Of a stretch of DNA of 51,231 nt, positions 9,917-45,029 are shown piece by piece. Numbering within the stretch: the stretch's first letter is position 1; every line of letters begins with the position of its first letter. This DNA is from Oscillospiraceae bacterium (lineage in GTDB: Bacteria > Bacillota > Clostridia > Oscillospirales > CAG-272): contig SVTP01000015.1 of assembly GCA_015063725.1 (NCBI GenBank), positions 1-51,231 on the forward strand. The letters run 5' to 3'. The notes beneath the pieces are model-generated. The model searched no databases. It saw only the letters and a list, made by a program, of their open reading frames with translations, and was not told where the DNA came from. Both the position numbers and the translations under genes were made by a program.

Positions 9917-9952
9917 AACAATCCTTCTCCTTTTTGGGTTTTGTATCCACGC

Positions 9953-14850: not shown

Positions 14851-14955
14851 CAAAAAGTTTAGCACAAATAAACGGATGCACCGAGCCTCACACCTCATCT
14901 GCTTTGAAAAAGCGGTCACGTTCTTAACTTTTTTGTAAATAAATGTCTCTACGTA

Positions 14956-14984
14956 TTGCCTTTTTAATCTATTTCCTGTAAAAT
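14956..14984 (+). promoter_or_regulatory. Promoter of DUF4838 unit 1 (genes 1-2)
   Basis: TTGCCT (14956-14961), 17 bases, TAAAAT (14979-14984), about 45 bases before the first array gene. It is weaker than the others in the window. Confidence 0.5.
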
Positions 14985-15030: not shown

Positions 15031-16917
15031 ATGAAAAACAAACTTTCTCTGCTCTCGCTTTTGCTGGCGGTAATTATATTGCTTGCTTCTTGTAATATCA
15101 ACGTAAAGGTGGATGACGTAAATGGAGGCGATGTGAATGTAAACATCAACACCACACCGGGCAACGCCACAGAAAGCACAACGCCTGAACAGACTACACC
15201 CGAGGTGACAACTCCCCCCGAGGTAACCACTCCTCCCGAGAGTGGCGAAAATCCCCCCGCAGAACCTCAAACAACCTTGACACACGTCTCGATTGTTTTG
15301 GAGGGCAACTCTGCCGCCGAGATCACTGCAGCAAATGACCTTAAATATTATCTTTCTTTAAAAGGCGTTGACGTCGATACTCCCAATGGCTTCCCAATCA
15401 CGCTTCTCGTCAATGAAAATCTCAAGGATGATGCCTTTCGGGTAACATCTGTAATTGATGAGGACGCAGGAGATTATTCCCTTTTGATTGAAGGCGGCAA
15501 CGGTCGCGGTATACTCTACGGCGTATATCAATTCCTTGAAAAATACGCGAATGTGCGCTTTTTCACCCCCGAGTTAGAGGTTTGCGAACCGGGAGACGTC
15601 ACATTCCCCGCCGGGACACTGATCGATCACACACCCGTCCTTGCATTGCGCCAAACCGACTGGTATAACTGGATAAGCGACTCCTCCAAATATGCTTGGG
15701 CTGCAAAAAACGGCGTTAATTTGATGAGCGGCTGGAGACAATCTTGGGACGAAGAGTTTGGCGGCAGCCTGACCTATGCGCCCAGTATGTTTGTTCACAC
15801 CATCGGCAAGCTTGCCGAACTGGATTCCCCCTCCCCCACACTGATCGCTAACCCCTGTCTGACCGATGAAAATATTTATCAGACCGTACTGAAAAACGTG
15901 CGCACCGTTCTGGCACAAAACCCCGATGCAAGAATTCTGTCCGTATCTCAAAACGACAACAACAACTACTGCAAGTGCGAAAACTGTGAGGCAATTGCAG
16001 CAGAGGAAGGCAGCCCCGCAGGAACACTCCTCCGTTTTGTAAACAGAATTGCCAATGATATCGCAGCCGACTATCCCAACGTAACCATTGATACCTTGGC
16101 ATATCGATACACACAAAAGCCCCCGAAGATTACAAAGCCCGCTCCCAATGTTTGCATTCGTCTTTGCAGCATTTCCTGCCACTTTACACATCCGCTTACC
16201 AAGAGCAGCTGTTCCGTGTGCTCTGCGTTTTGCGATGCATTGAAGGGGTGGAGCGAAATTTGTGAAAACATCTACATTTGGGATTACACCACTAACTACT
16301 CCTACTATCTTGCCACCTTCCCCAACTTCCACGTCCTGCGCGAAAACATGAAGCTCTTTGCCGACCACAACGTCAAAGGCGTTTATGAGCAAGGCAACGC
16401 CTCCGGCCCCTCTGGCGAGTTTGGAGAGCTGCGCGCCTACCTCATTTCAAAGCTGTTGATGAACCCCTATATGAGCAAGAGTGAATACGATGCGCACATG
16501 GACGAATTCCTTGCCGCTTACTACGGAGACGGTTGGGAGTACATTCGCAAATATATCGATGCACATACGAGATACGCAAATCTCTCCACAGGCGGAATGG
16601 GCATTTACAACTACCCCTTTGGCGTGCTCTCCAAGGACGCTTTGAAGGGATCTGCCGACACCTTTAATTCGTGGTGGGATGCCGCCGAGGCTGCCGCCGG
16701 TGACCGCTTGGAATACGTACAGCGTTCCCGTTGGCAATTGCGCTATCTGCTGCTCTACGTTTACCCCGACAAGACTGAGGCTGAGGCATTGGTTGCAGCA
16801 GTGGAAGCCAACGGAACCAAATGGAGCGAGCGCTTCCCGAAACTTCTTTGGTACGTATATCAATATGACCTTTTGTCACAATCCCCCGACAAATGGTTTA
16901 CCGATCCCTCGAAATAA
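15031..16917 (+). CDS. DUF4838 lipoprotein, array member 1
   Basis: A 628-residue lipoprotein with lipobox LLASC (Cys21) and a TTPE linker to about residue 80. Residues ~82-200 form an N-terminal alpha/beta domain like those preceding GH20/GH67 barrels (YYLSLKG, GGNGRGILYGVYQFLEKY, RFFTPELE). The DUF4838 part follows, probably a TIM-barrel glycosidase-like domain: VHTIG (255-259), SVSQND (304-309), CKCENC (314-319), CIRLCSISC (375-383), WDYTTN (417-422), EQGN (453-456) and GEFGELRAY (462-470). A helical C-terminus carries RSRWQLRY. DUF4838 is uncharacterised; carbohydrate processing at the cell surface is inferred from the fold and neighbours. AAGGAGG precedes the ATG. Gene 2 starts 52 bases after the stop. 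Confidence 0.88.
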   Translation: MKNKLSLLSLLLAVIILLASCNINVKVDDVNGGDVNVNINTTPGNATESTTPEQTTPEVTTPPEVTTPPESGENPPAEPQTTLTHVSIVLEGNSAAEITAANDLKYYLSLKGVDVDTPNGFPITLLVNENLKDDAFRVTSVIDEDAGDYSLLIEGGNGRGILYGVYQFLEKYANVRFFTPELEVCEPGDVTFPAGTLIDHTPVLALRQTDWYNWISDSSKYAWAAKNGVNLMSGWRQSWDEEFGGSLTYAPSMFVHTIGKLAELDSPSPTLIANPCLTDENIYQTVLKNVRTVLAQNPDARILSVSQNDNNNYCKCENCEAIAAEEGSPAGTLLRFVNRIANDIAADYPNVTIDTLAYRYTQKPPKITKPAPNVCIRLCSISCHFTHPLTKSSCSVCSAFCDALKGWSEICENIYIWDYTTNYSYYLATFPNFHVLRENMKLFADHNVKGVYEQGNASGPSGEFGELRAYLISKLLMNPYMSKSEYDAHMDEFLAAYYGDGWEYIRKYIDAHTRYANLSTGGMGIYNYPFGVLSKDALKGSADTFNSWWDAAEAAAGDRLEYVQRSRWQLRYLLLYVYPDKTEAEALVAAVEANGTKWSERFPKLLWYVYQYDLLSQSPDKWFTDPSK

Positions 16918-16969
16918 CGATCCGCACCGTATCATCTGCTCCGTATAGAACAGAAAGGAACCCCACTTT

Positions 16970-18847
16970 ATGAAAAACAAACTTTCTCTGCTCTCGCTTT
17001 TGCTGGCGGTAATTGTGTTGCTTGCTTCTTGTAATATCAACATAAAGGTGGATGACGTAAATGGAGGCGATGTGAATGTAAACATCAACACCACACCGGG
17101 CGACGCCACAGAAAGCACAACGCCTGAACAGACTACACCCGAGGTGACAACTCCCCCCGAGGTGACAACTCCCCCCGAGGAGACAACTCCTCCTGTGGAG
17201 ATCGTTATTCCCGTTCCCACAAAAGAGCTGACGTCCGTTTTTATCCTCGCAGGAGAGACTTCCATAGAACAATTGGCGGCAGCAGAGCTTGAAAAGCACC
17301 TTGCCATTAAGGGTGTTGCCGTCGGCGAGGGCGGATTTCCCATCACGCTCTCCATCGATTCCTCGCTCGGCGACGATTGCTATCGCATTGAGGGCGCGGC
17401 AAACGTGACCGAGGAGCAAACAGGCGACGAATACCTGAACATCATTGGCGGAAACGGCCGCGGTGTGTTCTACGGTGTTGTCCGTTTTTTAGAGGAATAT
17501 GCGGGCACGCGTTTCTTCACCTATGAATTGGAAACCCACACCGCCGATCCCGTAGCGATCCCCGAGATGGTGCTGGTAGAATATCAACCCGTTTTTGAAT
17601 ACCGCTACACAAGCTGGTACGCCATGACCAAGGATCCCCTCTTTTGCCTGAAGAGCGGCATGAACGGCAACCACGGTGGCATTACCGAGGACCTCGGCGG
17701 TCATATCAGCTACGGCAGCGGTCTTGGCGTTCATACGCTGGGATGGCTGACCGAAACGACCTATCCCTACCCCGGGTATGCCCCCAACCCCTGCCTTGCC
17801 CTGAACACTCCCGAAGGTCAGGCAAATCTGGAAAAGGTCATCAAAAACGTGCGCGCGGTGCTTGAAAAAGACCCCACGGTAAACATTGTTTCGGTTTCTC
17901 AAAACGATACCGAGGACCATTGCGAATGCGAGAATTGCCTCGCTATTGAAAAAGAAGAAGGCAGCCCCGCGGGTGTGCTTCTCCGCTTTGTAAACGCCGT
18001 TGCCGAAAACCTTGAGGCAGACTACCCAAACCTCATCATTGACACCTTGGCATACAAGTATACGCGCAAGGCTCCCACCGTCACCAAGCCGAGAGAGAAC
18101 GTGTGCATTCGTCTTTGCTCGATCGAGTGTCACTTCAATCATCCCCTTACCACCGAAAAATGCTCGGTCTGCTCGGCGTTCCGCAACGATATGGTGGAAT
18201 GGAGCAAGATCTGCGACAACATTTACGTTTGGGATTACACCACCGATTTTTCCTATTACATCTCCTTCTTCCCCAACCTGCACGTCCTGCGTGAAAATAT
18301 GCAATTCTTTGCCGACCACAACGTAAAAGGTATGTTTGAGCAGGGCAACGGTCAGGGGCTTTCCGGCGAATTTGGAGAGCTGCGTGCTTACCTGCTTGCA
18401 AAGCTGATGATGTACCCCTACATGACCGAGGAAGAATACTCTGCACACATGGATGAATTTCTTGCCGCCTACTACGGAGCCGGCTGGAAAAACATTCGCT
18501 CCTACATCGATCAGGTATCCTCTCTGGCAATTCTCGGAGACGGACACACCATTTATCATCAACCTTTTACCTCGGTAAACGACAACTTTTACCGCGTGAT
18601 TGAGGATGGCGTGACAAAATGGTGGGATGCCGCCGAGGAGATGGCAGGCGACCGCCTCGAATACGTACAGCGCTCGCGCCTGCATTGGCGTTATATGCAG
18701 CTGATGCTGCACCCCAACGCAAAAAAAGCAGAAGAGCTGATTGCCGAGGTCGAAGGTCTTGGCATGGCTTGGCGTGAGGGCAGGTATCACGTAGACCTTG
18801 AAAAGTCTAATTTGAACAAAAGTCCCGGTACGTGGACATACTATTAA
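16970..18847 (+). CDS. DUF4838 lipoprotein, array member 2
   Basis: A 625-residue paralogue of member 1. The first ~70 codons (signal peptide, lipobox Cys21, TTPE linker) are almost identical in DNA to member 1, while the rest has diverged far more. Motifs: VHTLG (254-258), SVSQND (308-313), CECENC (318-323), CIRLCSIEC (379-387), WDYTTD (421-426, with Asp where most members have Asn), EQGN (457-460), GEFGELRAY (466-474). It closes the first transcription unit, as a terminator follows within 15 bases. Function is as uncertain as for member 1. Confidence 0.88.
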   Translation: MKNKLSLLSLLLAVIVLLASCNINIKVDDVNGGDVNVNINTTPGDATESTTPEQTTPEVTTPPEVTTPPEETTPPVEIVIPVPTKELTSVFILAGETSIEQLAAAELEKHLAIKGVAVGEGGFPITLSIDSSLGDDCYRIEGAANVTEEQTGDEYLNIIGGNGRGVFYGVVRFLEEYAGTRFFTYELETHTADPVAIPEMVLVEYQPVFEYRYTSWYAMTKDPLFCLKSGMNGNHGGITEDLGGHISYGSGLGVHTLGWLTETTYPYPGYAPNPCLALNTPEGQANLEKVIKNVRAVLEKDPTVNIVSVSQNDTEDHCECENCLAIEKEEGSPAGVLLRFVNAVAENLEADYPNLIIDTLAYKYTRKAPTVTKPRENVCIRLCSIECHFNHPLTTEKCSVCSAFRNDMVEWSKICDNIYVWDYTTDFSYYISFFPNLHVLRENMQFFADHNVKGMFEQGNGQGLSGEFGELRAYLLAKLMMYPYMTEEEYSAHMDEFLAAYYGAGWKNIRSYIDQVSSLAILGDGHTIYHQPFTSVNDNFYRVIEDGVTKWWDAAEEMAGDRLEYVQRSRLHWRYMQLMLHPNAKKAEELIAEVEGLGMAWREGRYHVDLEKSNLNKSPGTWTYY

Positions 18848-18861
18848 TCATACGCAAAAAA

Positions 18862-18897
18862 GACCGCTCGATCATGCTTTCGGGCGGTCTTTTGTCT
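18862..18897 (+). terminator. Terminator of DUF4838 unit 1
   Basis: Hairpin GACCGCTCGA...TCGGGCGGTC-type stem (18862-18889) followed by TTTTGTCTTTTT. Confidence 0.85.
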
Positions 18898-18927
18898 TTT
18901 TAAAAAGAAAAAATGACCAAAAATCGG

Positions 18928-18955
18928 TTGACATTTATCAAATTTATGTTATAAT
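18928..18955 (+). promoter_or_regulatory. Promoter of DUF4838 unit 2 (genes 3-4)
   Basis: TTGACA (18928-18933), 16 bases, TATAAT (18950-18955): both boxes perfect, about 50 bases before gene 3. Confidence 0.85.
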
Positions 18956-19004
18956 ATTCTATACACTTGCATTTGCAAAACTGTTTTGAAAGGAATGTGT
19001 CAAG

Positions 19005-20786
19005 ATGAAACTGTTTCGTATTCTTGCCATCGCGTTGCTGCTCCCTTGTCTTTTGATCGGCTGCGACTTCCCCGCCCCCGAGCAAACAACGCCTCAAACA
19101 ACCACCCCTGAAGGATCGACACTTGAGGGAACAACTCCCGAAGCGACCACTCCCGAGGTCTCCACGCCCGATTGCATGGAGCCTGTAACGCCCCCTGTGG
19201 CTACAATGAAGCTGACGCACGTCACCATTTCGGCGGGAAATTCCCCTGCTGAGCAGACGGCGCTTTCTGAGCTCACCAAATATCTTGAGGCGCGCTCGAT
19301 TACCGTCGCCGAGGGCGGATACCCCATCGACCTCTACATCGACATTACACTGGAAGAAGAGGCGTACTGTGTAGAAGCCGAGATTGACGGCAAGCACCCC
19401 GGTATGGATATTCGCGGCGGTAGCGATCGCGGTATTCTTTACGGCGTTTACGGGTTCCTTGAAAAATACGCAGGTCTGCGTGCCTTCACCCCCACTCTTG
19501 AGGTCTACCCCGAGGAAGGAGACATCATCATTGAAGAAGGCACCATGATCGAATTCCACCCTGTATTTGAAATGCGTGTAAATGACTGGTATCGCTGGTG
19601 CGCAGGTTCCGACACCTATTACTGGTGTGTTAAAAACGGCGTCAACATGATTGACGGCTGGTGGGAGCCTTGGGATAAAAACACCGGTGAACTGGGCGGC
19701 GCGTGGGACTACGGCGGACTGTTTGTGCATACCATTGGCGGCTTGACCGAAACCGGTGGCGGCACCTCGAAGAACCCTTGCCTCGCGTTGGATTCCCCTG
19801 AAGGAAAGGAAAACCTTGCCAAGGCTATTAAAAACGTGAGAGCCCGTTTGGAAAGCAGACCGAGCACCACGATCTTCTCGGTTTCGCAAAACGACACCGA
19901 CGCGCGTTGCCTTTGTGATTTCTGCAAAATAGTCGACAAGGAAGAAGGCAGCCCCGCAGGCACCCTTCTCCGCTTTGTCAATGCAATTGCCGAAAACATT
20001 GCAGAGGATTATCCCAACGTCGTTGTGGACACCTTGGCTTATGACTACACGCAAACGGCTCCCAAGATCACGGTTCCGCGCGAGAACGTTTGCATCCGTC
20101 TTTGCACCTTCCACTGCCACTTTACACATCCCCTGACAGATCCCAACTGCGCAACCAATGCAAAATTCTGCCGCGACCTGGAAGAATGGAGCAAGATTTG
20201 CGATAACATTCACATCTGGGACTACACAACAAACTTTGCATACTACATTCCCACCTATGCAAACCTGCACGTTCTGCAAGCCAACATGCAATATTTTGCA
20301 GAGAACAATGCAAAAGGTATGTTCCCGCAGGGCAACCGCAACGGCCCCTCGGGCGAGTTTGGCGAGCTGCGCGCATATCTGCTTTCCAAATTGATGATGG
20401 ATCCCTATATGGGCGAGGAAAAATACTACGCCCTGATGGACGAGTTCCTGGAAGCCTACTATGGCGACGGTTGGGCTTACATTCGTATGTACATCGACAA
20501 GACCTCTGAAATGTATTCGGACGGTTGCGGCAATATGTATATGCATCCCTTTAACAGACTCCCTGCCGAATCCTTTATTGAAATGCAACAAACCTTTAAC
20601 GACTGGTGGGCAAAAGCCGAGGCAATGGCAGACGAGGATCGCGTAGAAAACGTGCGCAGATCCAGCCTGCAATGGCGTTGGTTCTTGGCAAGACTTGACC
20701 AAAGCCTGCAAGAAGCCTTTGTAAAAGAAGTAGCAGAGCGCGGCGTTTGGTGGAGTGAGGGCAACCAAAACAACACCAGATGGTAA
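19005..20786 (+). CDS. DUF4838 lipoprotein, array member 3
   Basis: A 593-residue lipoprotein with lipobox LIGC (Cys20) and a TTPE-type linker to ~65. The N-terminal alpha/beta domain has GGSDRGILYGVYGFLEKYAGLRAFTP. Motifs in the main domain: VHTIG (241-245), SVSQND (292-297), CLCDFC (302-307), CIRLCTFHC (363-371), WDYTTN (405-410), PQGN (441-444, Pro instead of the Glu of members 1 and 2), GEFGELRAY (450-458). The C-terminal helical part is shorter than in members 1-2 and ends WWSEGNQNN. GAAAGGAATG precedes the ATG. Gene 4 begins 46 bases later with its own ribosome site. Confidence 0.87.
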   Translation: MKLFRILAIALLLPCLLIGCDFPAPEQTTPQTTTPEGSTLEGTTPEATTPEVSTPDCMEPVTPPVATMKLTHVTISAGNSPAEQTALSELTKYLEARSITVAEGGYPIDLYIDITLEEEAYCVEAEIDGKHPGMDIRGGSDRGILYGVYGFLEKYAGLRAFTPTLEVYPEEGDIIIEEGTMIEFHPVFEMRVNDWYRWCAGSDTYYWCVKNGVNMIDGWWEPWDKNTGELGGAWDYGGLFVHTIGGLTETGGGTSKNPCLALDSPEGKENLAKAIKNVRARLESRPSTTIFSVSQNDTDARCLCDFCKIVDKEEGSPAGTLLRFVNAIAENIAEDYPNVVVDTLAYDYTQTAPKITVPRENVCIRLCTFHCHFTHPLTDPNCATNAKFCRDLEEWSKICDNIHIWDYTTNFAYYIPTYANLHVLQANMQYFAENNAKGMFPQGNRNGPSGEFGELRAYLLSKLMMDPYMGEEKYYALMDEFLEAYYGDGWAYIRMYIDKTSEMYSDGCGNMYMHPFNRLPAESFIEMQQTFNDWWAKAEAMADEDRVENVRRSSLQWRWFLARLDQSLQEAFVKEVAERGVWWSEGNQNNTRW

Positions 20787-20832
20787 GGAACACCCATAAA
20801 GCACATTTGCATTTTGGAAAGGAAAAATCAAG

Positions 20833-22539
20833 ATGAAAAGATTTATCGCACTGTTTTTAACGATCCTACTGATTTCGGCGGTGTTCTCCTCCTGCGACTT
20901 CTTAAAAAATTATGAGGATATTCGCAACGACGAGTCCTCGCCCGAGGCAACCACTCCCGATCAGACAACACCTGAGGACAACACCCCTGTTGATCCCCCC
21001 ACAACACCCCCTCAAAAAATCACAAGCGTCAACATCACCTGCGGAAAGAGCGCAATTGAAAACTATGCGGCTGCCGAGCTGAGGTGGTATTTTACCAAAA
21101 AGAACATTACCCTCTCCCCTGATGGCTTTGGCATCGAACTCAAGATCGACGCAAGCCTTGCCCAAAAGGACGGCTACAGAATTACAGCCGATGAGAACGG
21201 TCTTGTGCTTGTGGCGGGCAACGAAAGAGGTCTTGCATACGGTCTTTACGCATTCCTTGAAAAATATCTCGGTGTGCACGTCTACTCTCCCGATACCGTT
21301 GTCATTGATGAGGGCGACGTGATGATCGGTGGCGGTGTGCTTGCTGTATACGAGCCTGCGTTTGAGATCATCCGCAACCCTTGGTTCCCCATCGAGTCGC
21401 TTTCCGAAAAGGACGGCGGCAACGTGCACGACCTTGGCTCGATCAAGACCTTGTCTCTCAACGCCATTGTTGGTACCGGCAACATTCAACCCTGCCTCTC
21501 GGACCCCGAAAACCTCACCAAGGCGATCGGCGTTGTTGAAAATTATCTGCGCGCGGTCAAAAACGTTGACACCCTGAGCTTTGCTCCCGCAACCGAGTAT
21601 GACATTTATTGCACCTGTGATGCCTGTGCTGCGGTTATTGCCGAGGAAGGTAGCCCCGCAGGTCTCTACGTTCGTTTTTTGAATCAACTGACCGAAGCAA
21701 TCTCTGCCGAGTATCCCACTCTCAAATATGAGCTGGTGATCCGTGCATATCTCAAAACCGCTCCCACCGTTACAAAGCTGTCCGACAGAATTTCCCTTCG
21801 CTTTGACATAAGCAAGTGTCATATTTCGCACCCCATCACCGATGGAAACTGCCCCGAGGCGGTGGCTTTGGCTGACAGCATGAGATCCTGGGGAAAAATG
21901 GGCGCTAACATTCACGTTGAATACGGGCTGACCGCCACCGAGGATTTCATCCCCGTGTTTGCAAACCTTGGCACTCTGCGTGAGAACTTCCGCTTCTTTG
22001 CCGAGTGCGGCGTGGATAGCATTGTTTGCGACGGCAACATTGTTTGCCCCACGGGTGAGTTTGGGGAGCTGCGCGTTTACCTTGTATCTCAACTGTTGCA
22101 AAACCCGACGATGAGCGAGGAAGAATACTACGCTCTGATGGACGCCTTTCTCAAAGCCTACTACGGCGAGGGTTGGATGCACATTCGCGAATTTATCGAC
22201 ACAGTCACCGAGCTTGCAGCCGACGGACACCAAACCGCCGATGGCTCTCCCTTTGATGCCATTACCCAAGAGGAATATGCACAACATGCAGAAGCGTTTG
22301 ATGAACTGTGGGACCAAGCCGAGGCGCTTGCAGGCGACAGAATCGATTTTGTAAAGCGCGCTCGCTTCCAATGGCGTTACATCAAGCTTTGCATCAACCC
22401 CAATGCAGAAGATGCGCAAGCACTGATCTCCGATGCCGCAAGCAAGCCCCGTGTTGGCTGGCGCCCTGCACAATGGAACGTTGACACCGCAAATTCCGAC
22501 CTCAATCTCGCTCCTACTGAGTGGGTTTACAGATCTTAA
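20833..22539 (+). CDS. Divergent DUF4838-like lipoprotein, array member 4
   Basis: A 568-residue lipoprotein (lipobox FSSC, Cys21; anchor CDFLKNYEDI shared in style with member 5 and the MBL protein). The N-terminal domain is normal (AGNERGLAYGLYAFLEKYLG). The main domain has lost most family motifs: SVSQND is replaced by SFAPATEYD (249-257), WDYTTN by VEYGLTATE (362-370), the xQGN motif by CDGN (399-402), and the paired cysteines of CIRLC by SLRFD. CTCDAC (260-265) and GEFGELRVY (408-416) remain. The reading frame is intact and the ribosome site (GGAAAGG) is good, so it is expressed but probably altered in activity or substrate. Confidence 0.85.
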   Translation: MKRFIALFLTILLISAVFSSCDFLKNYEDIRNDESSPEATTPDQTTPEDNTPVDPPTTPPQKITSVNITCGKSAIENYAAAELRWYFTKKNITLSPDGFGIELKIDASLAQKDGYRITADENGLVLVAGNERGLAYGLYAFLEKYLGVHVYSPDTVVIDEGDVMIGGGVLAVYEPAFEIIRNPWFPIESLSEKDGGNVHDLGSIKTLSLNAIVGTGNIQPCLSDPENLTKAIGVVENYLRAVKNVDTLSFAPATEYDIYCTCDACAAVIAEEGSPAGLYVRFLNQLTEAISAEYPTLKYELVIRAYLKTAPTVTKLSDRISLRFDISKCHISHPITDGNCPEAVALADSMRSWGKMGANIHVEYGLTATEDFIPVFANLGTLRENFRFFAECGVDSIVCDGNIVCPTGEFGELRVYLVSQLLQNPTMSEEEYYALMDAFLKAYYGEGWMHIREFIDTVTELAADGHQTADGSPFDAITQEEYAQHAEAFDELWDQAEALAGDRIDFVKRARFQWRYIKLCINPNAEDAQALISDAASKPRVGWRPAQWNVDTANSDLNLAPTEWVYRS

Positions 22540-22556
22540 TAAACATTTTGTTTCTC

Positions 22557-22588
22557 GCAAGCGGCGATTTCGCCGCTTGCGTTTTTTT
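22557..22588 (+). terminator. Terminator of DUF4838 unit 2
   Basis: Hairpin GCAAGCGGCG...CGCCGCTTGC (22557-22580) followed by GTTTTTTT. Confidence 0.9.
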
Positions 22589-22624
22589 ATTCGTTTCTCT
22601 TTTGTAAACAAATCAAGAACACTA

Positions 22625-22653
22625 TTGCTTTTTTTTGCATTTTTTGGTATGAT
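22625..22653 (+). promoter_or_regulatory. Promoter of DUF4838 unit 3 (genes 5-7)
   Basis: TTGCTT (22625-22630), 17 bases, TATGAT (22648-22653), about 65 bases before gene 5. Confidence 0.65.
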
Positions 22654-22718
22654 ATAGAGTGAGAGAATATATTTATATTCTCATTCATTCCTTAACGCGA
22701 ACAAAAAGGAGAAAAACG

Positions 22719-24533
22719 ATGAAAAAGCTGTTGACTCTGCTGCTTGTTGCAGCAATTCTGCTCCCCTGCTTTTTGACAGCCTGCGATTTCTTAAAAAACT
22801 ACACAGAAATTCGCGACGAAAGACCGGATTCCGAAACAACTACGCCTGAGAGTACGACTCCCGAGGACGATCCGGTTGTGGATCCCCCTGTGGTAAAAAC
22901 CATGACACTGACATCTGTTAAGGTCAGCGCCGGTGAAGAGGACACCGAGGCGTATGCCGCTGCCGAGCTGATGGCTTACCTTGCCAAAAAAGGTGTTGCA
23001 CTGGCAGAGGACGGCTTCTCCATCACTCTGAGCATTGATTCCTCCCTTGGAGAGGATGCTTTCAAAATTGAAGCAGACATTGACGCGGGCAGCATGACCT
23101 TTGTAGGCGGCAACGGTCGCGGCATCATTTACGCGGTTTACAGATTTTTGGAAAAGTATGCCGGCTTCCGCTATCTTACTCCCGACCTGGAAACACAGAC
23201 CGAGGATCCCGTCATCATTCCCGACGGTGTGCTGATGGACTATGCTCCCGTTATGTCTTCCGCTCGCCGTTTGACCTGGTATTACACCGGTAGAGATGCA
23301 GAATGGTGCGTAAAGAATGGCATTAGCGGTTGTGATACCACTCTTGATGCAATGCACGGCGGCCCCAGCCTGAACTACGGCAGTATGTTCGTTCACACCA
23401 TCGGTCCCCTTTACGAGACCACCTATCCTTACCCCACCTACACAAGCAACCCCTGCCTGACCGACCCCGAGATTCTGGCGACCGTTATCAAGAATGTGCG
23501 CAAGGAGCTTGAAAAGAACCCTGCTATGAACATCATTTCGGTTTCTCAGACCGACGTTGAGTCCTGGTGTCTCTGCCCCAACTGTGCAAGGATCGCCGAG
23601 GAAGAGGGTAGCTATGCAGGCGTTTGGGTGCGCTTTGTAAACACGATTGCCGAGGACATTGCAGAGGACTATCCCAACGTCATTGTGGATACACTCGCAT
23701 ACAAGCACACGCAAACACCTCCAAAGATCACAAAGCCCCGCGAGAACGTTTGTATTCGTTTGTGCTCCATTGCGTGCTGCTTTACGCACGCACTGGATGA
23801 TCCCAACTGCCCCGACAACAAAAAGTTCCACGATGACCTTATGGGCTGGGGCAAGATCTGTGATAACATTCACGTCTGGGATTACACCACCAACTTCCGC
23901 CATTACATCTCCACCTTTGCAAATCTTGGCGTGCTCCGTCAGAATATGCGCTTTTATGCCGAGAACAACGTAACCGCAATGTTCCCGCAGGGCAACAGCC
24001 AAGGCTGGTCGGGTGAGTTCGGTGAGCTTCGCTCCTACCTGTTGGCACAGCTGATGTGGAACCCCTACATGAGTGAGGAAGAATACTACGGCCATATGGA
24101 TGATTTCCTCAAGGCTTACTACGGTGCCGGCTGGCAACAGATCCGCTACTTTATCGACGACACCATTCGACTTGCTGCCAACGGCGGATACGCCATTAAC
24201 AGCGACGAGACCCCCGGCGAGGCTGTTTGCGGACAAGGCATTTACGATCATCCCTTTACCGTCATTACCAGAGAAGAATACTACTACCACGAGCTGATTT
24301 TTGATCAATACTGGGCTGTTGCCGAGGAAATGGCAGGCAACAGAGCCGAATACGTAAGACGCTCGATGCTGCAATGGCGCTTGACCAAGCTTTATCTGCG
24401 TCCCAACGCCCAGGAAGCCGCAAAGCTGATTGCCGATGCCAAGGCATTGGGCGTTCCGTGGAGCGAGGGTAAGCCAAACGTCAACGCATCCTCCGACCTC
24501 TCCCTCTCCCCCTTCTTCTGGAGCTACGGTTGA
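22719..24533 (+). CDS. DUF4838 lipoprotein, array member 5
   Basis: A 604-residue lipoprotein. I use the ATG at 22719, which follows AAAAGGAG and begins a proper signal peptide (lipobox LTAC, Cys22); 20 further open codons upstream overlap the promoter region. Motifs: VHTIG (225-229), SVSQTD (274-279, Thr instead of Asn), CLCPNC (284-289), CIRLCSIAC (345-353), WDYTTN (387-392), PQGN (423-426), GEFGELRSY (432-440). The C-terminal third (CGQGIYDHPFTVITREEY, RRSMLQWRLTKLYL) is closest to member 6, its unanchored neighbour. The surface anchor CDFLKNYTEI matches members 4 and the MBL lipoprotein in style. Confidence 0.88.
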   Translation: MKKLLTLLLVAAILLPCFLTACDFLKNYTEIRDERPDSETTTPESTTPEDDPVVDPPVVKTMTLTSVKVSAGEEDTEAYAAAELMAYLAKKGVALAEDGFSITLSIDSSLGEDAFKIEADIDAGSMTFVGGNGRGIIYAVYRFLEKYAGFRYLTPDLETQTEDPVIIPDGVLMDYAPVMSSARRLTWYYTGRDAEWCVKNGISGCDTTLDAMHGGPSLNYGSMFVHTIGPLYETTYPYPTYTSNPCLTDPEILATVIKNVRKELEKNPAMNIISVSQTDVESWCLCPNCARIAEEEGSYAGVWVRFVNTIAEDIAEDYPNVIVDTLAYKHTQTPPKITKPRENVCIRLCSIACCFTHALDDPNCPDNKKFHDDLMGWGKICDNIHVWDYTTNFRHYISTFANLGVLRQNMRFYAENNVTAMFPQGNSQGWSGEFGELRSYLLAQLMWNPYMSEEEYYGHMDDFLKAYYGAGWQQIRYFIDDTIRLAANGGYAINSDETPGEAVCGQGIYDHPFTVITREEYYYHELIFDQYWAVAEEMAGNRAEYVRRSMLQWRLTKLYLRPNAQEAAKLIADAKALGVPWSEGKPNVNASSDLSLSPFFWSYG

Positions 24534-24573
24534 TTTTGATTTGAAATCATCTATTCGATAAAGAGAAACGACT

Positions 24574-26211
24574 ATGAAAAAAACACTGACATCTGTCAAT
24601 ATTACATCCGGCAACGAGCCCACCGCACGTCACGCCGCCCTTGAATTGCAAAAGTATCTGCACCAAAAAGGCGTTGACGTCTCTCCTGACGGTTTTCCCA
24701 TCTCGATCGTTATAGACGAGTCCTTTGAGCAGGACAGCTACAAGATCGAGGCTTGCCTGAAAGGCGACGAAGGTATGACCGTCCGCGGTGATAAGTGCGG
24801 CGTGCTTTACGGCGTTTATAACTTTTTGGAAGCATACGCCGGTATTCGCTTCTTTACTCCCACGCTGGAGATTTGCCCCAAGGGGGATGTTATCATCCCC
24901 CACGGGCTTGTGCTGGAGCACAACCCCGCCATCAAGGCGCGCCGCCTGACCTGGCGCAGCATTCAAAAAAGCACCGATTGGTGCGCAAAGAACGGTGTTA
25001 ACATTTGTGACGCCGAGTTTGGCGAGGAGCTTGGCGGCTCACGCCTCAACTACGGTAAGCTGTTTGTGCACACCATCAACATCCTTGCCGAAACCACCTA
25101 CCCCTACCCCGCCTATGGCACCAACCCCTGCCTGACCGACCCCGCTGTTTTGGATAAGGTCATTCAAAACGTGCGCAAGGCACTTGAGGAAAACCCCAAG
25201 ATCAACATCGTGTCGGTCTCGCAAAACGACTTTAACGGTCACTGTAAATGCCCCAACTGTCGCAAGATAGAAGAAGAGGACGGCACCCCCGCAGGTCCTC
25301 TGATCCGCTTTGTCAACAAGGTTGCAGAAAACCTTGAGGCAGATTATCCGCACCTGACGGTTGATACGCTCGCTTACCAGTACACGCAAAAAACGCCGGC
25401 GGTCACAAAGCCGCGCCACAACGTGTGCATTCGCTTGTGCTCCATCAACTGCTGCTTTACCCATCCGCTGGGCAACAGCGAGTGTGCCAACAGTAAAAGG
25501 TTTTACGAGGACATTGTCGGCTGGGGCAATATCTGCGACAAGCTGCACATCTGGGATTACACAACAAATTTCCATTATTATATTTCCACTTTCCCCAACC
25601 TCGACGTGATTCACAAGAACATGCGGTTCTTTGCCGAAAACCACGTGGTTTCGATGTTCCCGCAGGGAAACGGCCAGGGAGAATCGGGCGAGTTTGGCGA
25701 ATTGCGCGCTTACCTTCTTGCCAAGCTGATGTGGGATCCCTACATGAGCGAGGAGACCTACTACGGGCTTATGGATGCGTTTCTTGCCGCTTACTACGGT
25801 GACGGTTGGAAATACATTCGCAAATTCATCGACAAGACCACCGAGCTTGCCGCAAATGGCGGATTCAGGATCAACAAGGATGAAACCGAGGGTGCTGCCG
25901 TTTGCGGACAAGGCATTTACGGTCATCCCTTTACCGCCATCACACGCGGTGAGTACCTTGAGCACGAATCCCTGTTTGAGGAGTGGTGGAACCGCGCGGC
26001 AGAGCTTGCGGGTGACCGCATCGAGTACGTCAAGCGTTCGATGATGCAATGGCGACTGACAAAGCTCTACTTGCACCCCAACGCCGAAGAAGCCCAAAAG
26101 CTGATTGACGATGCAAAAGCCGCAGGCGTTGTTTGGAAGGAAGGTCAGTTTAACGTACAACCCGAATCCGATCTTTCCAAAAGCCCATACTTTTGGAAGT
26201 ATGGCAAATAA
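24574..26211 (+). CDS. DUF4838 protein without export signal, array member 6
   Basis: A 545-residue paralogue that begins directly at the N-terminal domain (MKKTLTSVNITSGNEP). It has no signal peptide, lipobox or linker, so it is predicted cytoplasmic. All core motifs are kept: VHTIN (165-169), SVSQND (214-219), CKCPNC (224-229), CIRLCSINC (285-293), WDYTTN (327-332), PQGN (363-366), GEFGELRAY (372-380). It follows member 5 by 40 bases and shares with it a C-terminal CGQGIYxHPF segment, so the pair probably arose by duplication. The ribosome site (AAAGAGAAA) is weak. Conserved cysteines in a reducing compartment argue for a metal site rather than disulfides. Confidence 0.87.
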   Translation: MKKTLTSVNITSGNEPTARHAALELQKYLHQKGVDVSPDGFPISIVIDESFEQDSYKIEACLKGDEGMTVRGDKCGVLYGVYNFLEAYAGIRFFTPTLEICPKGDVIIPHGLVLEHNPAIKARRLTWRSIQKSTDWCAKNGVNICDAEFGEELGGSRLNYGKLFVHTINILAETTYPYPAYGTNPCLTDPAVLDKVIQNVRKALEENPKINIVSVSQNDFNGHCKCPNCRKIEEEDGTPAGPLIRFVNKVAENLEADYPHLTVDTLAYQYTQKTPAVTKPRHNVCIRLCSINCCFTHPLGNSECANSKRFYEDIVGWGNICDKLHIWDYTTNFHYYISTFPNLDVIHKNMRFFAENHVVSMFPQGNGQGESGEFGELRAYLLAKLMWDPYMSEETYYGLMDAFLAAYYGDGWKYIRKFIDKTTELAANGGFRINKDETEGAAVCGQGIYGHPFTAITRGEYLEHESLFEEWWNRAAELAGDRIEYVKRSMMQWRLTKLYLHPNAEEAQKLIDDAKAAGVVWKEGQFNVQPESDLSKSPYFWKYGK

Positions 26212-26244
26212 TGCATAGCCCTTGTGCTATAAAGGAGATAAGAT

Positions 26245-28155
26245 ATGAAAAGATCATTGATCATTTTGCTGATTGCGGCAATGTTGTTGCCCTGTCTCTT
26301 CCTCGGTTGTGACAATCAAGAACCCGAAGCAACTACCCCGGTTGTGACAACCCCTGAGGTCACAACGCCCGAAACAACCACTCCCGAAGAGGAGATTGTG
26401 GAACCCCCTTATGACGGTCCCGACATTACGCCCGAGGGCGTTCTCAAGCGTGCGAGCGTTGTAACAACGGGCACGAGCGAGAGTGAGCTTTATGCCGCCC
26501 AAGAACTTGCAAAATACCTCTCTATGAAAAAGATCGAGGTAAAGGACGGCGCATTCCCCATTACCCTTTCGATTGACGAGACGCTTGACAATGATGCGTT
26601 TGTGATCACCGCTACCCTCTCGGGTGACGGAGCAGGCATGACCATTGCGGGCGGCAACGAACGCGGTGTGCTCTACGGCGTTTATAAGTTCCTTGAGGAG
26701 CTTGGCGGCGTTCGCTACTTTACCCCCGACCTTGAAACCGTCCCCACTACCGACCTCACCTTAAAGGAAGGTATCGTTCTCGAATATACCCCCTATTTTG
26801 AATCCCGTCGCCTCAACTGGAACTGCGTTAGAGCAGAAGCAGATTGGTGCACCAAGCAAGGCGTTAACGCCCACGACGGTGCAACCGATGCAAAATACGG
26901 CGGATTGCAAACCTACGGCAGCGGTCTGTTCGTTCACACGCTGGGTGCCTTGACCGAAACAGGTGACGGTCTTTCCCCCAACCCCTGCCTCTCCTTGGAT
27001 TCTCCCGAGGGTCAGAAAAACTTCCAGACTACTCTCAAAAATCTGCGTGCGGCTCTTGAAAAAGACCCCACAATGAATATCGCTTCGGTTTCTCAAAACG
27101 ATAAAAACGAGTATTGCCAATGCGATTATTGCAAGGCATCTTACGCATATTACACATATCACACGGGCGATGTTAACCATGTCGATTACGTTAAGAATTG
27201 TGCCGAAAAGGGCGGTGCCGCAGGCAATCTGCTCGCCTTTGTAAACGCCATTGCCGAGGAGCTGGAGGACGAATATCCCAATCTCGTTATCGACACCCTC
27301 GCTTACAACTACACCCAAGCAGCACCCAAGAACATCGTTCCCCGCGAAAACGTTTGCATTCGCGTCTGCTCCATTCGCGTATGCTTTATGCACCCCATGA
27401 CTGTTTGTCCCGAGCACAAGGGCCCCAACAACGCACAGTGGACAAGAACCAAGCTCTTTATGACCGATTTTGTCAACTGGGGCAAGATCTGCGACCGCAT
27501 TTACGTTTGGGACTACACCACAAACTTCCGTTACTACATCGCTCCTTTCTCGAACTTTGGTGCAATTCGTGAGAATATGAAATTCTACCACGAAAACGGC
27601 GTGCGCGGAATGTTCCCGCAGGGCAACAGCCAATCCATCTCCGGTGAATTCGGCGAGCTCCGTGCTTACCTTCTTGCCAAGCTGATGTGGAATCCTTATA
27701 TGTCCCAAGAGGAATATGACAGACACATGAACGAATTCCTCAAGGCTTACTACGGTGCCGGCTGGGTTTACATTCGTCAATTTATTGATAAGACCACCCA
27801 GCTTGTTGCCAACGCCGACAGCTGTATCAATATTTACGAAGAGCCTCTCCAATCCATCTCCAAAGAAGAGTATCTCGCAAACGAATACTTCTTTGAAGAG
27901 CTGTGGAGCAAGGCAGAAGCAATTGCAGGTGATAGAGCCGAGTACGTACATCGCTCTCGCCTCCAATGGCGTTGCATTCAAATTCTCCTTCATCCCAACA
28001 ACGAGGACGCCCTTGCATTCGCAGAAGAAATTGAAGCATTGGGCATTCGTTGGGCAGAGGGCGACAACAATAACATTCCGATCTACCAAATGGATCCCTT
28101 CAAGGGTCTGTACCCCGACCTGCAACCCAAGCCTGAAGAAGTCCCCACAGAATAA
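26245..28155 (+). CDS. DUF4838 lipoprotein, array member 7
   Basis: A 636-residue lipoprotein (lipobox FLGC, Cys22; TTPE linker to ~57). Motifs: VHTLG (230-234), SVSQND (281-286), CQCDYC (291-296), CIRVCSIRVC (371-380), WDYTTN (422-427), PQGN (458-461), GEFGELRAY (467-475). It carries an insertion of about 25 residues right after the CxCxxC motif (297-322, Tyr/His-rich). It also has a second insertion near 388-402 that resembles one in member 8. AAAGGAGATAAG precedes the ATG, 33 bases after member 6. It closes unit 3 with a terminator. Confidence 0.87.
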   Translation: MKRSLIILLIAAMLLPCLFLGCDNQEPEATTPVVTTPEVTTPETTTPEEEIVEPPYDGPDITPEGVLKRASVVTTGTSESELYAAQELAKYLSMKKIEVKDGAFPITLSIDETLDNDAFVITATLSGDGAGMTIAGGNERGVLYGVYKFLEELGGVRYFTPDLETVPTTDLTLKEGIVLEYTPYFESRRLNWNCVRAEADWCTKQGVNAHDGATDAKYGGLQTYGSGLFVHTLGALTETGDGLSPNPCLSLDSPEGQKNFQTTLKNLRAALEKDPTMNIASVSQNDKNEYCQCDYCKASYAYYTYHTGDVNHVDYVKNCAEKGGAAGNLLAFVNAIAEELEDEYPNLVIDTLAYNYTQAAPKNIVPRENVCIRVCSIRVCFMHPMTVCPEHKGPNNAQWTRTKLFMTDFVNWGKICDRIYVWDYTTNFRYYIAPFSNFGAIRENMKFYHENGVRGMFPQGNSQSISGEFGELRAYLLAKLMWNPYMSQEEYDRHMNEFLKAYYGAGWVYIRQFIDKTTQLVANADSCINIYEEPLQSISKEEYLANEYFFEELWSKAEAIAGDRAEYVHRSRLQWRCIQILLHPNNEDALAFAEEIEALGIRWAEGDNNNIPIYQMDPFKGLYPDLQPKPEEVPTE

Positions 28156-28161
28156 CAACAA

Positions 28162-28193
28162 ATCCCCACGGAACACCGTGGGGATCTTTTTTT
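28162..28193 (+). terminator. Terminator of DUF4838 unit 3
   Basis: Hairpin ATCCCCACGG...CCGTGGGGAT (28162-28185) followed by CTTTTTTT. Confidence 0.9.
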
Positions 28194-28234
28194 AAAAAAG
28201 TTACTTTTTAACACATAAAAAGCACATAATACCA

Positions 28235-28263
28235 TAGACAAATTACGCGCGTTGTGCTATACT
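28235..28263 (+). promoter_or_regulatory. Promoter of DUF4838 unit 4 (genes 8-9)
   Basis: TAGACA (28235-28240), 17 bases, and an extended -10 box TGCTATACT (TATACT at 28258-28263), about 45 bases upstream of gene 8. Confidence 0.7.
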
Positions 28264-28305
28264 GTAAGCAGATAGGATCGTTTTCTTTTTTAAGGAGGAA
28301 CCAAA

Positions 28306-30108
28306 ATGAAAAAAACGCTCGCCTTGCTCTTGCTTGCAGCAATGCTGCTCCCCGCTATTCTGTCGGGTTGTAACAACACGCCACCCGAGGCAACAACACC
28401 AAACGCCACAACTCCGACGGTCACTACTCCCGAGGTCACAACCCCCGAGGTGACCACGCCATCTGAGGGGGGCGATCCCGACACACCCGACATCACATCC
28501 GATAATGTTCTCCGTCGCGCCGAGATCATTACGGGAGATAGCGAAACCGAAATTTTTGCCGGCGAGGAGCTTGCCAAATACCTTACCCAAAAAGGGGTTG
28601 AGATTGCCGAGGATGGCTTCCCCATCATCCTCTTTATTGATGAAACGCTTGGCGATGACTGCTTCTCGATCGATGCTATCCTCCAAGGAGAGGAAGCCTC
28701 TATGACCATTCGCGGTGGCAACGGACGCGGCGTGCTCTATGGCGTTTATAAGTTTTTGGAAAGATACGCGGGCGTTCGCTACTTTACAAAGGACCTTGAG
28801 GTCATTCCCGAGGGGGACATTGTTTTGTTTGAAGGTAATCTGCTTACCTACGAGCCTTACTTTGAATACCGCCACACCAGCTGGAACTGTGCCGCTACAA
28901 GCGATGCGTGTTCTTGGTGTGTAAAAAACGGCTTGAACGGCAACGGTCACCTCACCCCCGAGCTTGGCGGTGAAATCAGCTACGCCCCCGGCTTGAACGT
29001 TCATACACTTGGCAAATTGAGCGAAACGGGTGGCGCTTCAGACCCCAACCCTTGCCTCTCCAGCGAGGAGATCTATCAAACAGTTCTCAAAAACGTGCGC
29101 GCGATCCTCGAAAAGGATCCCACTGCTAACATCGTCTCCATCTCTCAAAATGACGACGAGGGGTACTGCAAGTGCGAAAAGTGTGCAGCCGTTGACGCCG
29201 AGGAATGCAGCCCCTCCGGTTTGATGCTCCGCTTTGTCAACCGCATTGCCGAGGAGCTGGAAAAAGACTACCCCAACCTGATTATTGACACACTGGCTTA
29301 TAACTACACCCAAGCACCTCCCATCAAAACCGTGCCCCGTCACAACGTTTGCGTGCGTCTTTGCTCCATTCGTTGCTGCTTTATGCACCCCTTGACCGAG
29401 TGCAACGATGCTCCCGGTCCCAACGGCGACACATGGACAAGAACCGAAGAGTTTTTGAAAGACCTGAAGGGTTGGGGTGAGATTTGCGATAACATTTATG
29501 TTTGGGACTACACCACCAACTTTGCTTATTACATTCCGCCCTTCTCTAACTTCGGCTCCCTCCGTCAGAACATGCGCCTCTATTATGAAAGCGACGTAAA
29601 AGGTATGTTTGAGCAAGGCAACGGCCAATCTCCCTCGGGTGAATTTGGCGAATTGCGTGCTTATCTGATCGCCAAGCTGATGTGGAACCCCTTGATGAGC
29701 GAGGAAGAATACTACCATCACATGGATGAATTCCTTGCCGCTTACTACGGAGATGGTTGGGAGTACATTCGCAAATTCATCGATAAGACCACCGAGCTCG
29801 CTTCCAACGCAGGCAGTTGCATCAACATCTACGAAGCACCTCTGCAATCCATCAGCAAAGCCGAGTACCTTGAATACGAGGATGAATTTAACGCTTGGTG
29901 GGATGCCGCCGAGGAGCTTGCAGGTAACCGCCGCGCCTACGTTCGGCGCTCGCGCATGCAGTGGCGCTACATCGAGCTTTTGCTCCACCCCGACGAGAAA
30001 GCCTGCAGGCAGTTTATTGCCGACGTCAATATTTATGGCATCCGTTGGGCAGAAAGCACCAAAAACAACTATCCCCCCGACAAGATGTTCCCCGACCTCT
30101 ATCCTTAA
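28306..30108 (+). CDS. DUF4838 lipoprotein, array member 8
   Basis: A 600-residue lipoprotein (lipobox LSGC, Cys22; linker TTPNATTPTVTTPEVTTPE). Motifs: VHTLG (232-236), SISQND (278-283, Ile for Val), CKCEKC (288-293), CVRLCSIRCC (349-358), WDYTTN (400-405), EQGN (436-439, the Glu form), GEFGELRAY (445-453). The DNA around the CVRLCSIRCCFMHP stretch is nearly identical for ~40 bases to member 9, a sign of recent duplication or conversion. AAGGAGGA precedes the ATG. The unanchored member 9 follows 44 bases later. Confidence 0.88.
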   Translation: MKKTLALLLLAAMLLPAILSGCNNTPPEATTPNATTPTVTTPEVTTPEVTTPSEGGDPDTPDITSDNVLRRAEIITGDSETEIFAGEELAKYLTQKGVEIAEDGFPIILFIDETLGDDCFSIDAILQGEEASMTIRGGNGRGVLYGVYKFLERYAGVRYFTKDLEVIPEGDIVLFEGNLLTYEPYFEYRHTSWNCAATSDACSWCVKNGLNGNGHLTPELGGEISYAPGLNVHTLGKLSETGGASDPNPCLSSEEIYQTVLKNVRAILEKDPTANIVSISQNDDEGYCKCEKCAAVDAEECSPSGLMLRFVNRIAEELEKDYPNLIIDTLAYNYTQAPPIKTVPRHNVCVRLCSIRCCFMHPLTECNDAPGPNGDTWTRTEEFLKDLKGWGEICDNIYVWDYTTNFAYYIPPFSNFGSLRQNMRLYYESDVKGMFEQGNGQSPSGEFGELRAYLIAKLMWNPLMSEEEYYHHMDEFLAAYYGDGWEYIRKFIDKTTELASNAGSCINIYEAPLQSISKAEYLEYEDEFNAWWDAAEELAGNRRAYVRRSRMQWRYIELLLHPDEKACRQFIADVNIYGIRWAESTKNNYPPDKMFPDLYP

Positions 30109-30152
30109 AATAATTTAGCCCCCTGATAACAATCTCAAAAAGGAGACAAAAA

Positions 30153-31748
30153 ATGAGCATTACTCTCAAGCAAGTTTCAATCCTGACGGGCAACACCGAG
30201 ACTGAAGTGTATGCCAAAGAAGAATTGCAAAAGTATTTGGAAATGAAGGGCGTTACCGTCAAGGACGGTGCGTACCCCATCACGATCACCTATGACAAAA
30301 CTCTCTCCCGTAACGACGGCTTCCGCGTCAGTGCTACTGCCGACGGCATGACCTTTGCGGGTGGCACCGAGCACGCTGTTCTTTACAGTGTTTATAAATT
30401 CCTTGAAAAATTTGCAGGTGTTCGCTATTTTCTGCCCGGACTGGAAAAGGTCCCTGCAGGCGACATCACATTCGAGGAAGGTATCCTCATTGATTTTGCC
30501 CCCATTTTTGAGTCCCGCCAGATCAACTGGAATGCTGTAACACATAGCGCCGAATGGTGCACCAAGCAAGGCATTAACAACTGCGACGCCGACATGAGCG
30601 GCAAGTTTGGCGGCAAGTGGAGCTACGGCGGCTTGTTCGTTCACACCCTTGGCAAGCTGACCGAAACAGCTGAATGGGCGGGTGCTAACCCCTGTCTGTG
30701 CGACCCCGAAAACCTCAGAAAAGCCATTAAAAACGTCAGAGCCGCTCTTGAGGCAAACCCCAACACCGACATCGTTTCTGTCTCCCAAAACGATAACAAC
30801 AACTACTGCAAGTGTGAAAAATGTCAGGCGGTTGATGCAGAGGAAGGCAGCCCCTCGGGCAATATGCTCCGCTTTGTCAACGCTATCGCGGCTGACATTG
30901 CCGAGGATTATCCCCACGTTGTTGTTGACACACTGGCTTACAATTACACCCAAGCCGCTCCCAAGATCACAAAGCCCCTGCCCAACGTTTGCGTGCGTCT
31001 TTGCTCCATTCGTTGCTGCTTTATGCACCCTCTGACCAAGTGCCCTAACAAGAGTGTTTGGACCAAAACGCCCAACCTCGTGCGCGACCTTGTGGAATGG
31101 GGTAAGATCTGCAACCGCATTTATATTTGGGATTACACCACAAACTTTAAATTCTACGTTCCCACCTATGCAAACTTTGGTGCTTTGCGAGAGAATATGC
31201 GTTTCTATGTTGACAACCACGTGCGTGGAATGTTCCCGCAGGGCAACAGCCAATCCATCTCCGGTGAGTTCGGTGAAGTTCGCGCTTACCTGCTTGCAAA
31301 ATTGATGTGGGATCCTTACATGAGCGAGGAAGAATACTACACGCACATGGACGAGTTCCTCGAGGCTTACTACGGAGACGGTTGGAAGTACATTCGCAAA
31401 TACATTGACAAGACCACAGAGTTGGCAGCGGACGGATGTATGAACATCTACGAAAATCCCTTCACCGCAATCACGCGCGAGGAATACGCCGAGAACGAGG
31501 TCGACTTTGACGAGCTCTGGCAAAAGGCAGAGGAGCTTGCAGATGAGGATAGAAAAGAAAACGTTCGCCGTTCCGCCCTGCAATGGCAGTATCTCAAGCT
31601 GATGCTCCACCCGAGCCTTGAGGGATCGAAGAAGCTGGTTCACGACGTTAAGAGCCGCAACATCCTCTGGCTGGAGCGCAAATACGAGGTTGAGGACGCA
31701 ACTGACCTCTCCCTCTCCCCCGACCATTGGTTTGATTACAGATATTAA
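30153..31748 (+). CDS. DUF4838 protein without export signal, array member 9
   Basis: A 531-residue paralogue starting MSITLKQVSILTGN, with no signal peptide, lipobox or TTPE linker. The start is well supported by AAAAAGGAGAC. Motifs: VHTLG (163-167), SVSQND (209-214), CKCEKC (219-224), CVRLCSIRCC (280-289), WDYTTN (326-331), PQGN (362-365), GEFGEVRAY (371-379; Leu to Val). As with member 6, the unanchored protein directly follows an anchored one in the same unit, implying a matched cytoplasmic activity. A strong terminator follows. Confidence 0.87.
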   Translation: MSITLKQVSILTGNTETEVYAKEELQKYLEMKGVTVKDGAYPITITYDKTLSRNDGFRVSATADGMTFAGGTEHAVLYSVYKFLEKFAGVRYFLPGLEKVPAGDITFEEGILIDFAPIFESRQINWNAVTHSAEWCTKQGINNCDADMSGKFGGKWSYGGLFVHTLGKLTETAEWAGANPCLCDPENLRKAIKNVRAALEANPNTDIVSVSQNDNNNYCKCEKCQAVDAEEGSPSGNMLRFVNAIAADIAEDYPHVVVDTLAYNYTQAAPKITKPLPNVCVRLCSIRCCFMHPLTKCPNKSVWTKTPNLVRDLVEWGKICNRIYIWDYTTNFKFYVPTYANFGALRENMRFYVDNHVRGMFPQGNSQSISGEFGEVRAYLLAKLMWDPYMSEEEYYTHMDEFLEAYYGDGWKYIRKYIDKTTELAADGCMNIYENPFTAITREEYAENEVDFDELWQKAEELADEDRKENVRRSALQWQYLKLMLHPSLEGSKKLVHDVKSRNILWLERKYEVEDATDLSLSPDHWFDYRY

Positions 31749-31762
31749 AACACAAAAAGCAG

Positions 31763-31795
31763 GCGCTGTCCGTTTGGACAGCGCCCTTTTTTTGC
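31763..31795 (+). terminator. Terminator between the array and the converging MBL gene
   Basis: Hairpin GGCGCTGTCC-gttt-GGACAGCGCC (31763-31786) followed by CTTTTTTTT on the plus strand; on the minus strand the stem is followed by a weaker T-rich run. It probably serves both converging units. Confidence 0.85.
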
Positions 31796-45008: not shown

Positions 45009-45029
45009 GAACACTCACCTCTCTTTCTC

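Follow-up and report, generated by a model that had tools for sequence, protein, structure and literature searches.

Nine tandem DUF4838 genes in an Oscillospiraceae genome: a largely conserved array of putative glycoside hydrolases

What does a run of nine adjacent genes of a single domain family encode, and does it represent a new kind of system? The question is raised by contig SVTP01000015.1 of the Oscillospiraceae bacterium assembly GCA_015063725.1 (Clostridia; Oscillospirales; CAG-272), whose 51,231 nucleotides are the window analyzed here (contig C12 of a 1.85 Mb assembly in 38 contigs, 80% complete). Nine open reading frames (ORFs; g1 to g9), encoding proteins of 531–636 amino acids, lie head to tail on the forward strand between positions 15031 and 31748. 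As the preliminary description of this DNA had proposed, they are DUF4838 paralogs: a Pfam profile search placed all nine above the PF16126 (DUF4838) cut-off of 26.6 bits, with scores of 121–279 bits (E-values 7.6e-83 to 6.9e-35), and their pairwise protein identity is 34–61%. The array is genuine and for the most part conserved, and its copy number is unusual; it is an expansion of an enzyme class known in outline, not a new kind of system. From sequence comparison and a predicted structure, we judge it somewhat probable that tandem amplification has produced here a palette of glycoside hydrolases (GH) of the GH20/GH84 type, resembling N-acetylhexosaminidases and most likely falling in or close to CAZy family GH163.

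Three parts are predicted for each protein: the N-terminal domain is of alpha/beta type, the middle is a (beta/alpha)8-like barrel that carries a Cys-rich loop, and the C-terminal domain is helical. The predicted structure of g9 is confident (predicted local distance difference test score, pLDDT, of 96) and has the architecture of GH115, GH84, GH67, and GH20; together with the profile matches, it confirms the earlier guess of an alpha/beta N-domain followed by a barrel, the arrangement that defines the GH20/GH84/GH115 fold group. Four of the nine copies matched the GH20b N-domain below cut-off, and comparison with GH67 (PF07488) aligned only the N-domain (4.3% for the barrel). No match to the GH20 catalytic domain (PF00728) was listed for any of the nine at E-values up to 1, under filters that drop most weak matches. 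No NCBIfam family exceeded its cut-off for any copy, a PDB sequence search with the nine-row alignment matched only the linker, and the profile search returned no solved structure for the DUF4838 barrel.

In GH20, a catalytic Asp-Glu pair follows barrel strand 4. None of the nine copies has this pair; Asn-Asp occupies the position in seven copies, Thr-Asp in g5, and neither in g4. In profile alignment, the near-invariant Asp of an SQND motif falls onto the catalytic Glu of GH20 beta-hexosaminidases; in g9, the motif follows the strand at residues 207–209, its Asn being N213 and its Asp D214. Across an alignment of 128 sequences of at least 370 amino acids (L009, L014, L015, and L017 omitted as doubles), R122, H164, Q212, D214, and a WDY motif are kept in most relatives, as they are in eight of the nine copies. 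The Asp would be the catalytic acid, and the neighboring Asn (Thr in g5) may hold the 2-acetamido group of the substrate, a place filled by Asp in GH20. DUF4838 thus shares with GH20 beta-N-acetylhexosaminidases the N-domain, the start of the barrel, the position of the acidic pair, and a downstream CxxC, but differs in having Asn-Asp for Asp-Glu, in a second half without reliable alignment, and in forming a separate Pfam family. The GH84 O-GlcNAcases and the GH115, GH67, and GH138 uronidases have the same multi-domain architecture and fold, although identity in structural alignments is about 9–14%. Elsewhere in the same genome (L117, contig C16), a GH20 enzyme has, after its catalytic DE, a CxCxxC motif closely resembling the DUF4838 one.

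The statement that DUF4838 is uncharacterized proved too strong. A table in PMC9870897 lists a Polaribacter "DUF4838 domain-containing protein (GH163)," and in a passage of PMC10154615 a GH163 of B. thetaiotaomicron is described as cleaving the GlcNAc-beta-1,2-Man linkage (GlcNAc, N-acetylglucosamine) of mammalian complex N-glycans. BT_1035 is entered under GH163 in a list in PMC12834350; BT1038 was rejected as a GH163 enzyme, being listed as GH18, and PMC9124407, PMC13067680, and PMC10540074 were rejected as sources because "GH163" in the relevant passages was judged to stand for GH16_3. Likeness to GH163 consists in the label given to another DUF4838 protein (PMC9870897) and in glycan cleavage at the cell surface (PMC10154615), a link by published label only; the member described in that passage is a single endo-acting Bacteroides enzyme of a complex N-glycan system, whereas the window holds nine tandem copies in a member of the Clostridia without SusD. 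Nor does the locus show the SusC/SusD signature of a Bacteroides-type polysaccharide utilization locus: SusD (PF07980) had no match in the 80% complete host genome, and SusC was not searched. A relative on a Parabacteroides plasmid is flanked by GH3 and GH20 genes, next to which lie SusC/SusD.

The copies differ in their predicted destination. Seven (g1–g5, g7, and g8) open with a signal of the lipobox type and a linker of Thr, Pro, and Glu, while in g6 and g9 the catalytic part comes first; by eye, a signal is likewise missing from the g9 orthologs of two sister species (L035 and L030) and from the g6-like start at the 3′ terminus of L033. The host, a gut-type Clostridia bacterium, would have most copies meant for the surface and two for the interior. 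The seven would be tethered on the cell surface as lipoproteins through Thr/Pro linkers, cutting GlcNAc-type linkages outside, and g6 and g9 may act inside on imported fragments. The first ~200 bp of g1 and g2 are 97% identical and the remainder 43–77% per 100 columns; signal-linker modules have therefore been exchanged or homogenized apart from the enzyme part. This module is general in the genome, with 20 matches at an E-value of 0.01, including four array genes and the query itself, a protein adjoining the array. That protein (31805–36385, reverse strand) is of lipoprotein type, has 1526 amino acids and a metallo-beta-lactamase (MBL)-fold domain, and carries a CDFLxNxxxIR...TTPE signal-linker as in g4 and g5. 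Next to the GH31 gene, a 104-amino-acid open frame with a TTPE lipoprotein module (9692–9892, reverse strand) could encode a small lipoprotein or be a remnant.

One copy departs from the family pattern. R122, H164, D214, and D327 are lost in g4 and in its two orthologs, and yet all three frames stay open, with a ratio of non-synonymous to synonymous substitution rates (dN/dS) of ~0.13–0.19 and saturated dS; g3 is the neighbor of g4 in each of the three species. A Glu that precedes the first Cys of g4 by five residues could substitute for D214, though the two orthologs have no matching acid in a steady place, and the label "simply inactive" was dropped in favor of "altered." Probably, g4 serves as a partner that binds or that has an altered specificity.

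The genes are organized as predicted units g1–g2, g3–g4, g5–g7, and g8–g9. Four terminators, all strong, and a promoter ahead of each unit, in one case identified by eye, mark this division into 2, 2, 3, and 2 genes, which the first reading had already suggested (Table 1). Elsewhere, the same scan found 28 promoter-like sites against a shuffle mean of 14.5, and 36 terminator-like sites against 21.0; the case for the units is therefore made by how strong the stems are, where the sites lie, and whether they are conserved, and site numbers do not enter it. The unit 1 promoter (14956–14984) agrees with 9 of 12 consensus positions, and TTGACA...TATAAT is visible by eye before the g3 orthologs in L028 and L031. 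The promoter of g5 (22625–22653) does not satisfy the −35 rule of the scan; the same layout is seen again in the sister species. Because it ends at 22653, the start of g5 is read as 22719; the ORF list begins at 22659, five bases past the −10 box.

Table 1. Features of the window (positions counted from its first nucleotide)
Feature	Position	Strand	Basis
GH31	9953–13456	−	Pfam
Unit 1 promoter: TTTTGTAAATAAA element, 12 nt, TTGC (−35), 19 nt, TAAAAT (−10)	14931–14984	+	Scan and eye
g1, DUF4838, lipobox (by eye) and TTPE linker	15031–16917	+	ORF list, Pfam, alignment
g2, DUF4838, lipobox (by eye) and TTPE linker	16970–18847	+	Pfam, alignment
Unit 1 terminator	18858–18893	+	Scan
Unit 2 promoter: TTGACA-16-TATAAT, 12/12	18928–18955	+	Scan
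g3, DUF4838, lipoprotein type	19005–20786	+	Pfam, alignment
g4, divergent DUF4838, lipoprotein type; active-site residues of the family lost	20833–22539	+	Pfam, alignment, predicted model
Unit 2 terminator	22556–22581	+	Scan
Unit 3 promoter: TTTTGTAAACAAA element, 12 nt, TTGC, 19 nt, TATGAT	22600–22653	+	By eye and pattern search
g5, DUF4838, lipoprotein type; QTD instead of QND	22719–24533	+	Pfam, alignment
g6, DUF4838 without signal peptide (putative cytosolic form)	24574–26211	+	Pfam, alignment
g7, DUF4838, lipoprotein type	26245–28155	+	Pfam, alignment
Unit 3 terminator	28162–28185	+	Scan
Unit 4 promoter: TAGACA-17-TATACT, 10/12	28235–28263	+	Scan
g8, DUF4838, lipoprotein type	28306–30108	+	Pfam, alignment
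g9, DUF4838 without signal peptide (putative cytosolic form); structure predicted	30153–31748	+	Pfam, structure model
Unit 4 terminator	31762–31785	+	Scan
GH78	36557–38803	−	Pfam
GH2	40217–41992	−	Pfam

Units 1 and 3 and five sister-species sites have in common TTTTGTAAAYAAA, exactly 12 nt, TTGY, exactly 19 nt, and TAWRAT; the spacers differ in sequence and are fixed in length, and the g1 ortholog of each sister species is preceded by element and promoter at the spacing of unit 1. Allowing up to one mismatch, the pattern occurs at nine sites across 35 genomes of the genus, seven exact and two with one mismatch, and the reversed-pattern control has no site in the same genomes. All seven exact sites precede array genes, in the three array-bearing species. 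The pattern was built from array sites, which it recovers by construction; the informative result is that these 35 incomplete genomes hold no further exact site. A looser motif, TTTTGTAAAYAAAT, occurs at two more places in the genome, neither of which shows the promoter layout. One of the one-mismatch sites (in G004) looks like chance in an A-rich stretch; the other (G012, L165) precedes genes that by eye resemble sugar-binding lipoproteins, a possible clue to a transporter or regulon. Because they share the element, units 1 and 3 probably answer to one regulator, a putative activator acting through this dedicated promoter element.

Surveying related genomes showed how unusual the array is. 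Within the genus, 14 of the 35 genomes (the window's own included) have a DUF4838 match at an E-value of 1e-3, and eight of these have at least one below 1e-50; long series of strong matches occur only in G000 (10), RGIG7350 (G009; 11), and SIG623 (G024; 7, of which one is a fragment). Even sampling of the class, with at most seven candidates scored per genome, gave 29 of 291 genomes with a match at 1e-20, and only the window's own shows more than three matches. Among the best 80 of 135 confirmed loci in the genome collection, runs of at least three adjacent copies, partial ones included, are found at seven loci in five genomes (L028, L030, L041, L060, L067, L092, and L101). The arrays of other Clostridia (L041, L060/L067, and L092/L101) are adjacent runs of three to six genes and in this resemble the window; unlike it, all their copies are without a signal peptide by eye. 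They group in the tree in clades apart from that of the window, and tandem amplification has therefore apparently occurred at least four times in Clostridia, the window's included. One of the genomes concerned, Candidatus Parachristensenella avicola, has two tandem runs (L092 and L101) that together hold at least ten DUF4838 genes, in which no signal peptide is visible. As to the claim that no system with so many copies has been described, our literature searches turned up no such array; comparable arrays nevertheless exist in other genomes.

Pieces of the array itself lie on contigs of two sister species of the genus, SIG623 and RGIG7350; only in the window is it complete on a single contig. 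RGIG7350 has g1–g2 (L029), the end of a g2-like gene followed by g3–g4 (L031), two g5-like genes and the start of a g6-like gene (L033), g6–g7 (L043), and g9 (L035). SIG623 has g1–g3–g4 without g2 (L028, whose third ORF, 9842–11329, includes a run of unknown bases and was used unchanged) and two g7/g8-like genes followed by g9 (L030). Flank identities are 93% (L028) and 79% (L029) for an upstream acyltransferase, ~60% in both for GH31, 94% for an aminotransferase (L028), and 67% for a homolog of the MBL-fold lipoprotein, which adjoins g9 in L035. In a tree of 83 of the 128 sequences, the nine copies, 15 from the sister species, and two others form a clade of 26 (support of 99 in the Shimodaira–Hasegawa-like approximate likelihood ratio test, SH-aLRT), with the tenth DUF4838 copy of the genome, on contig C13, outside it; gene conversion within arrays could also group copies of one array. 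The tree was built by a quick method with SH-aLRT support only and left out L010–L013, L016, L018–L020, L022, most of L070–L107, and one linker-only match row. Eight of the nine copies have a clear counterpart, g8 being ambiguous, and ortholog pairs, g4 included, show dN/dS of ~0.07–0.19 with saturated dS.

These comparisons bear directly on the concern that the array is an artifact assembled from collapsed or chimeric repeats, which could arise for a contig of an 80% complete metagenome-assembled genome whose array is seen only in pieces in sister assemblies. We reject this explanation as extremely improbable: two other assemblies carry the same neighbors (g1–g2, g2–g3–g4, and g6–g7, or g1–g3–g4) within the same flanks on both sides, and the paralogs differ by 39–66%. 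As to the enzyme class, several observations weigh against the assignment favored here. Foldseek alignments of the g9 model reach TM-scores of only ~0.5 with root-mean-square deviations near 10 Å; GH20 similarity of the barrel alone is weak (58%), and of two single GH20 proteins one gave 4%, with the register shifted, and the other 0.1%; N213 is conserved in only 103 of 128 sequences, where a residue holding the acetamido group would be expected to be invariant. The top whole-fold match is the alpha-uronidase family GH115, about tied with GH84, and the nine could instead be exo-uronidase-like enzymes (GH115/GH67/GH138-like) trimming side chains of plant polysaccharides such as glucuronoxylan and pectin, one decoration per copy, a reading that we consider unlikely. 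Among 76 complete same-strand ORFs within 500 bp at the 80 loci, there is no constant partner, the commonest neighbor family, M42 peptidase, accounting for 7 of 76, and the array contains no transporter. The promoter element is missing from units 2 and 4 of the window, and the lipoboxes were identified by eye. A distant Burkholderia relative without the Cys cluster lies in an exopolysaccharide cluster; substrates can therefore vary.

The Burkholderia relative, embedded in exopolysaccharide synthesis genes, is also an argument for self-remodeling, in which the enzymes would act on the cell's own envelope or exopolysaccharide instead of on food or host glycans. The C13 copy, which adjoins spo0A near a D,D-carboxypeptidase, and the array's want of a transporter point the same way, but no glycosyltransferase cluster lies beside the array, and the presence of long strong series in only three of 35 incomplete genus genomes is unlike a housekeeping envelope function. 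Self-remodeling, which is compatible with the favored enzyme class, seems to us less likely again than the uronidase reading. Lower still we place the idea that duplication has diversified a set of surface lipoproteins that are not enzymes and instead bind glycans or act as decoys: the loss of active-site residues in g4 and its orthologs, whose frames stay open, and the recent homogenization of the g1 and g2 signal-linker part would fit it, but the glycosidase fold, the two copies without a signal, and the retention of the active-site pattern in the other eight copies and most relatives speak against it.

Glycan processing had also been proposed from the neighboring GH31, GH78, and GH2 genes. 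The genes are real, but all lie on the reverse strand and are therefore not co-transcribed with the array, so they are weak evidence; the proposal is partly supported, with glycan processing the likely role. The genome has GH20 at two places and BNR at seven (two of them under the cut-off), which does not decide the substrate. Further downstream (42115–48701, reverse strand) lies a cluster resembling type IV pilus or type II secretion genes, with an ATPase, an inner membrane protein, a prepilin peptidase, a pilin-like protein, and a 478-amino-acid protein without a Pfam match at an E-value of 0.01.

At its most ambitious, and with little likelihood in our estimation, the array could be a dedicated regulon of a single family. 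Its four units would be co-adapted, with surface and cytosolic copies coupled in two of them, and would be governed by a promoter class that was not seen ahead of any other gene in the genus; the altered g4, which is conserved, would be partner subunit or glycan sensor of g3. The outcome would be a combinatorial range of specificities directed at a single class of heterogeneous glycans that bear GlcNAc, with no classical utilization locus involved. If the copies differ in specificity, the array would be a natural panel of variants for recognition of the DUF4838/GH163 type. The rigidly spaced, array-linked promoter offers a handle on the inducing glycan and the regulator, and the fact that such arrays apparently arose more than once in Clostridia suggests that the substrate is varied enough to make many copies worthwhile.

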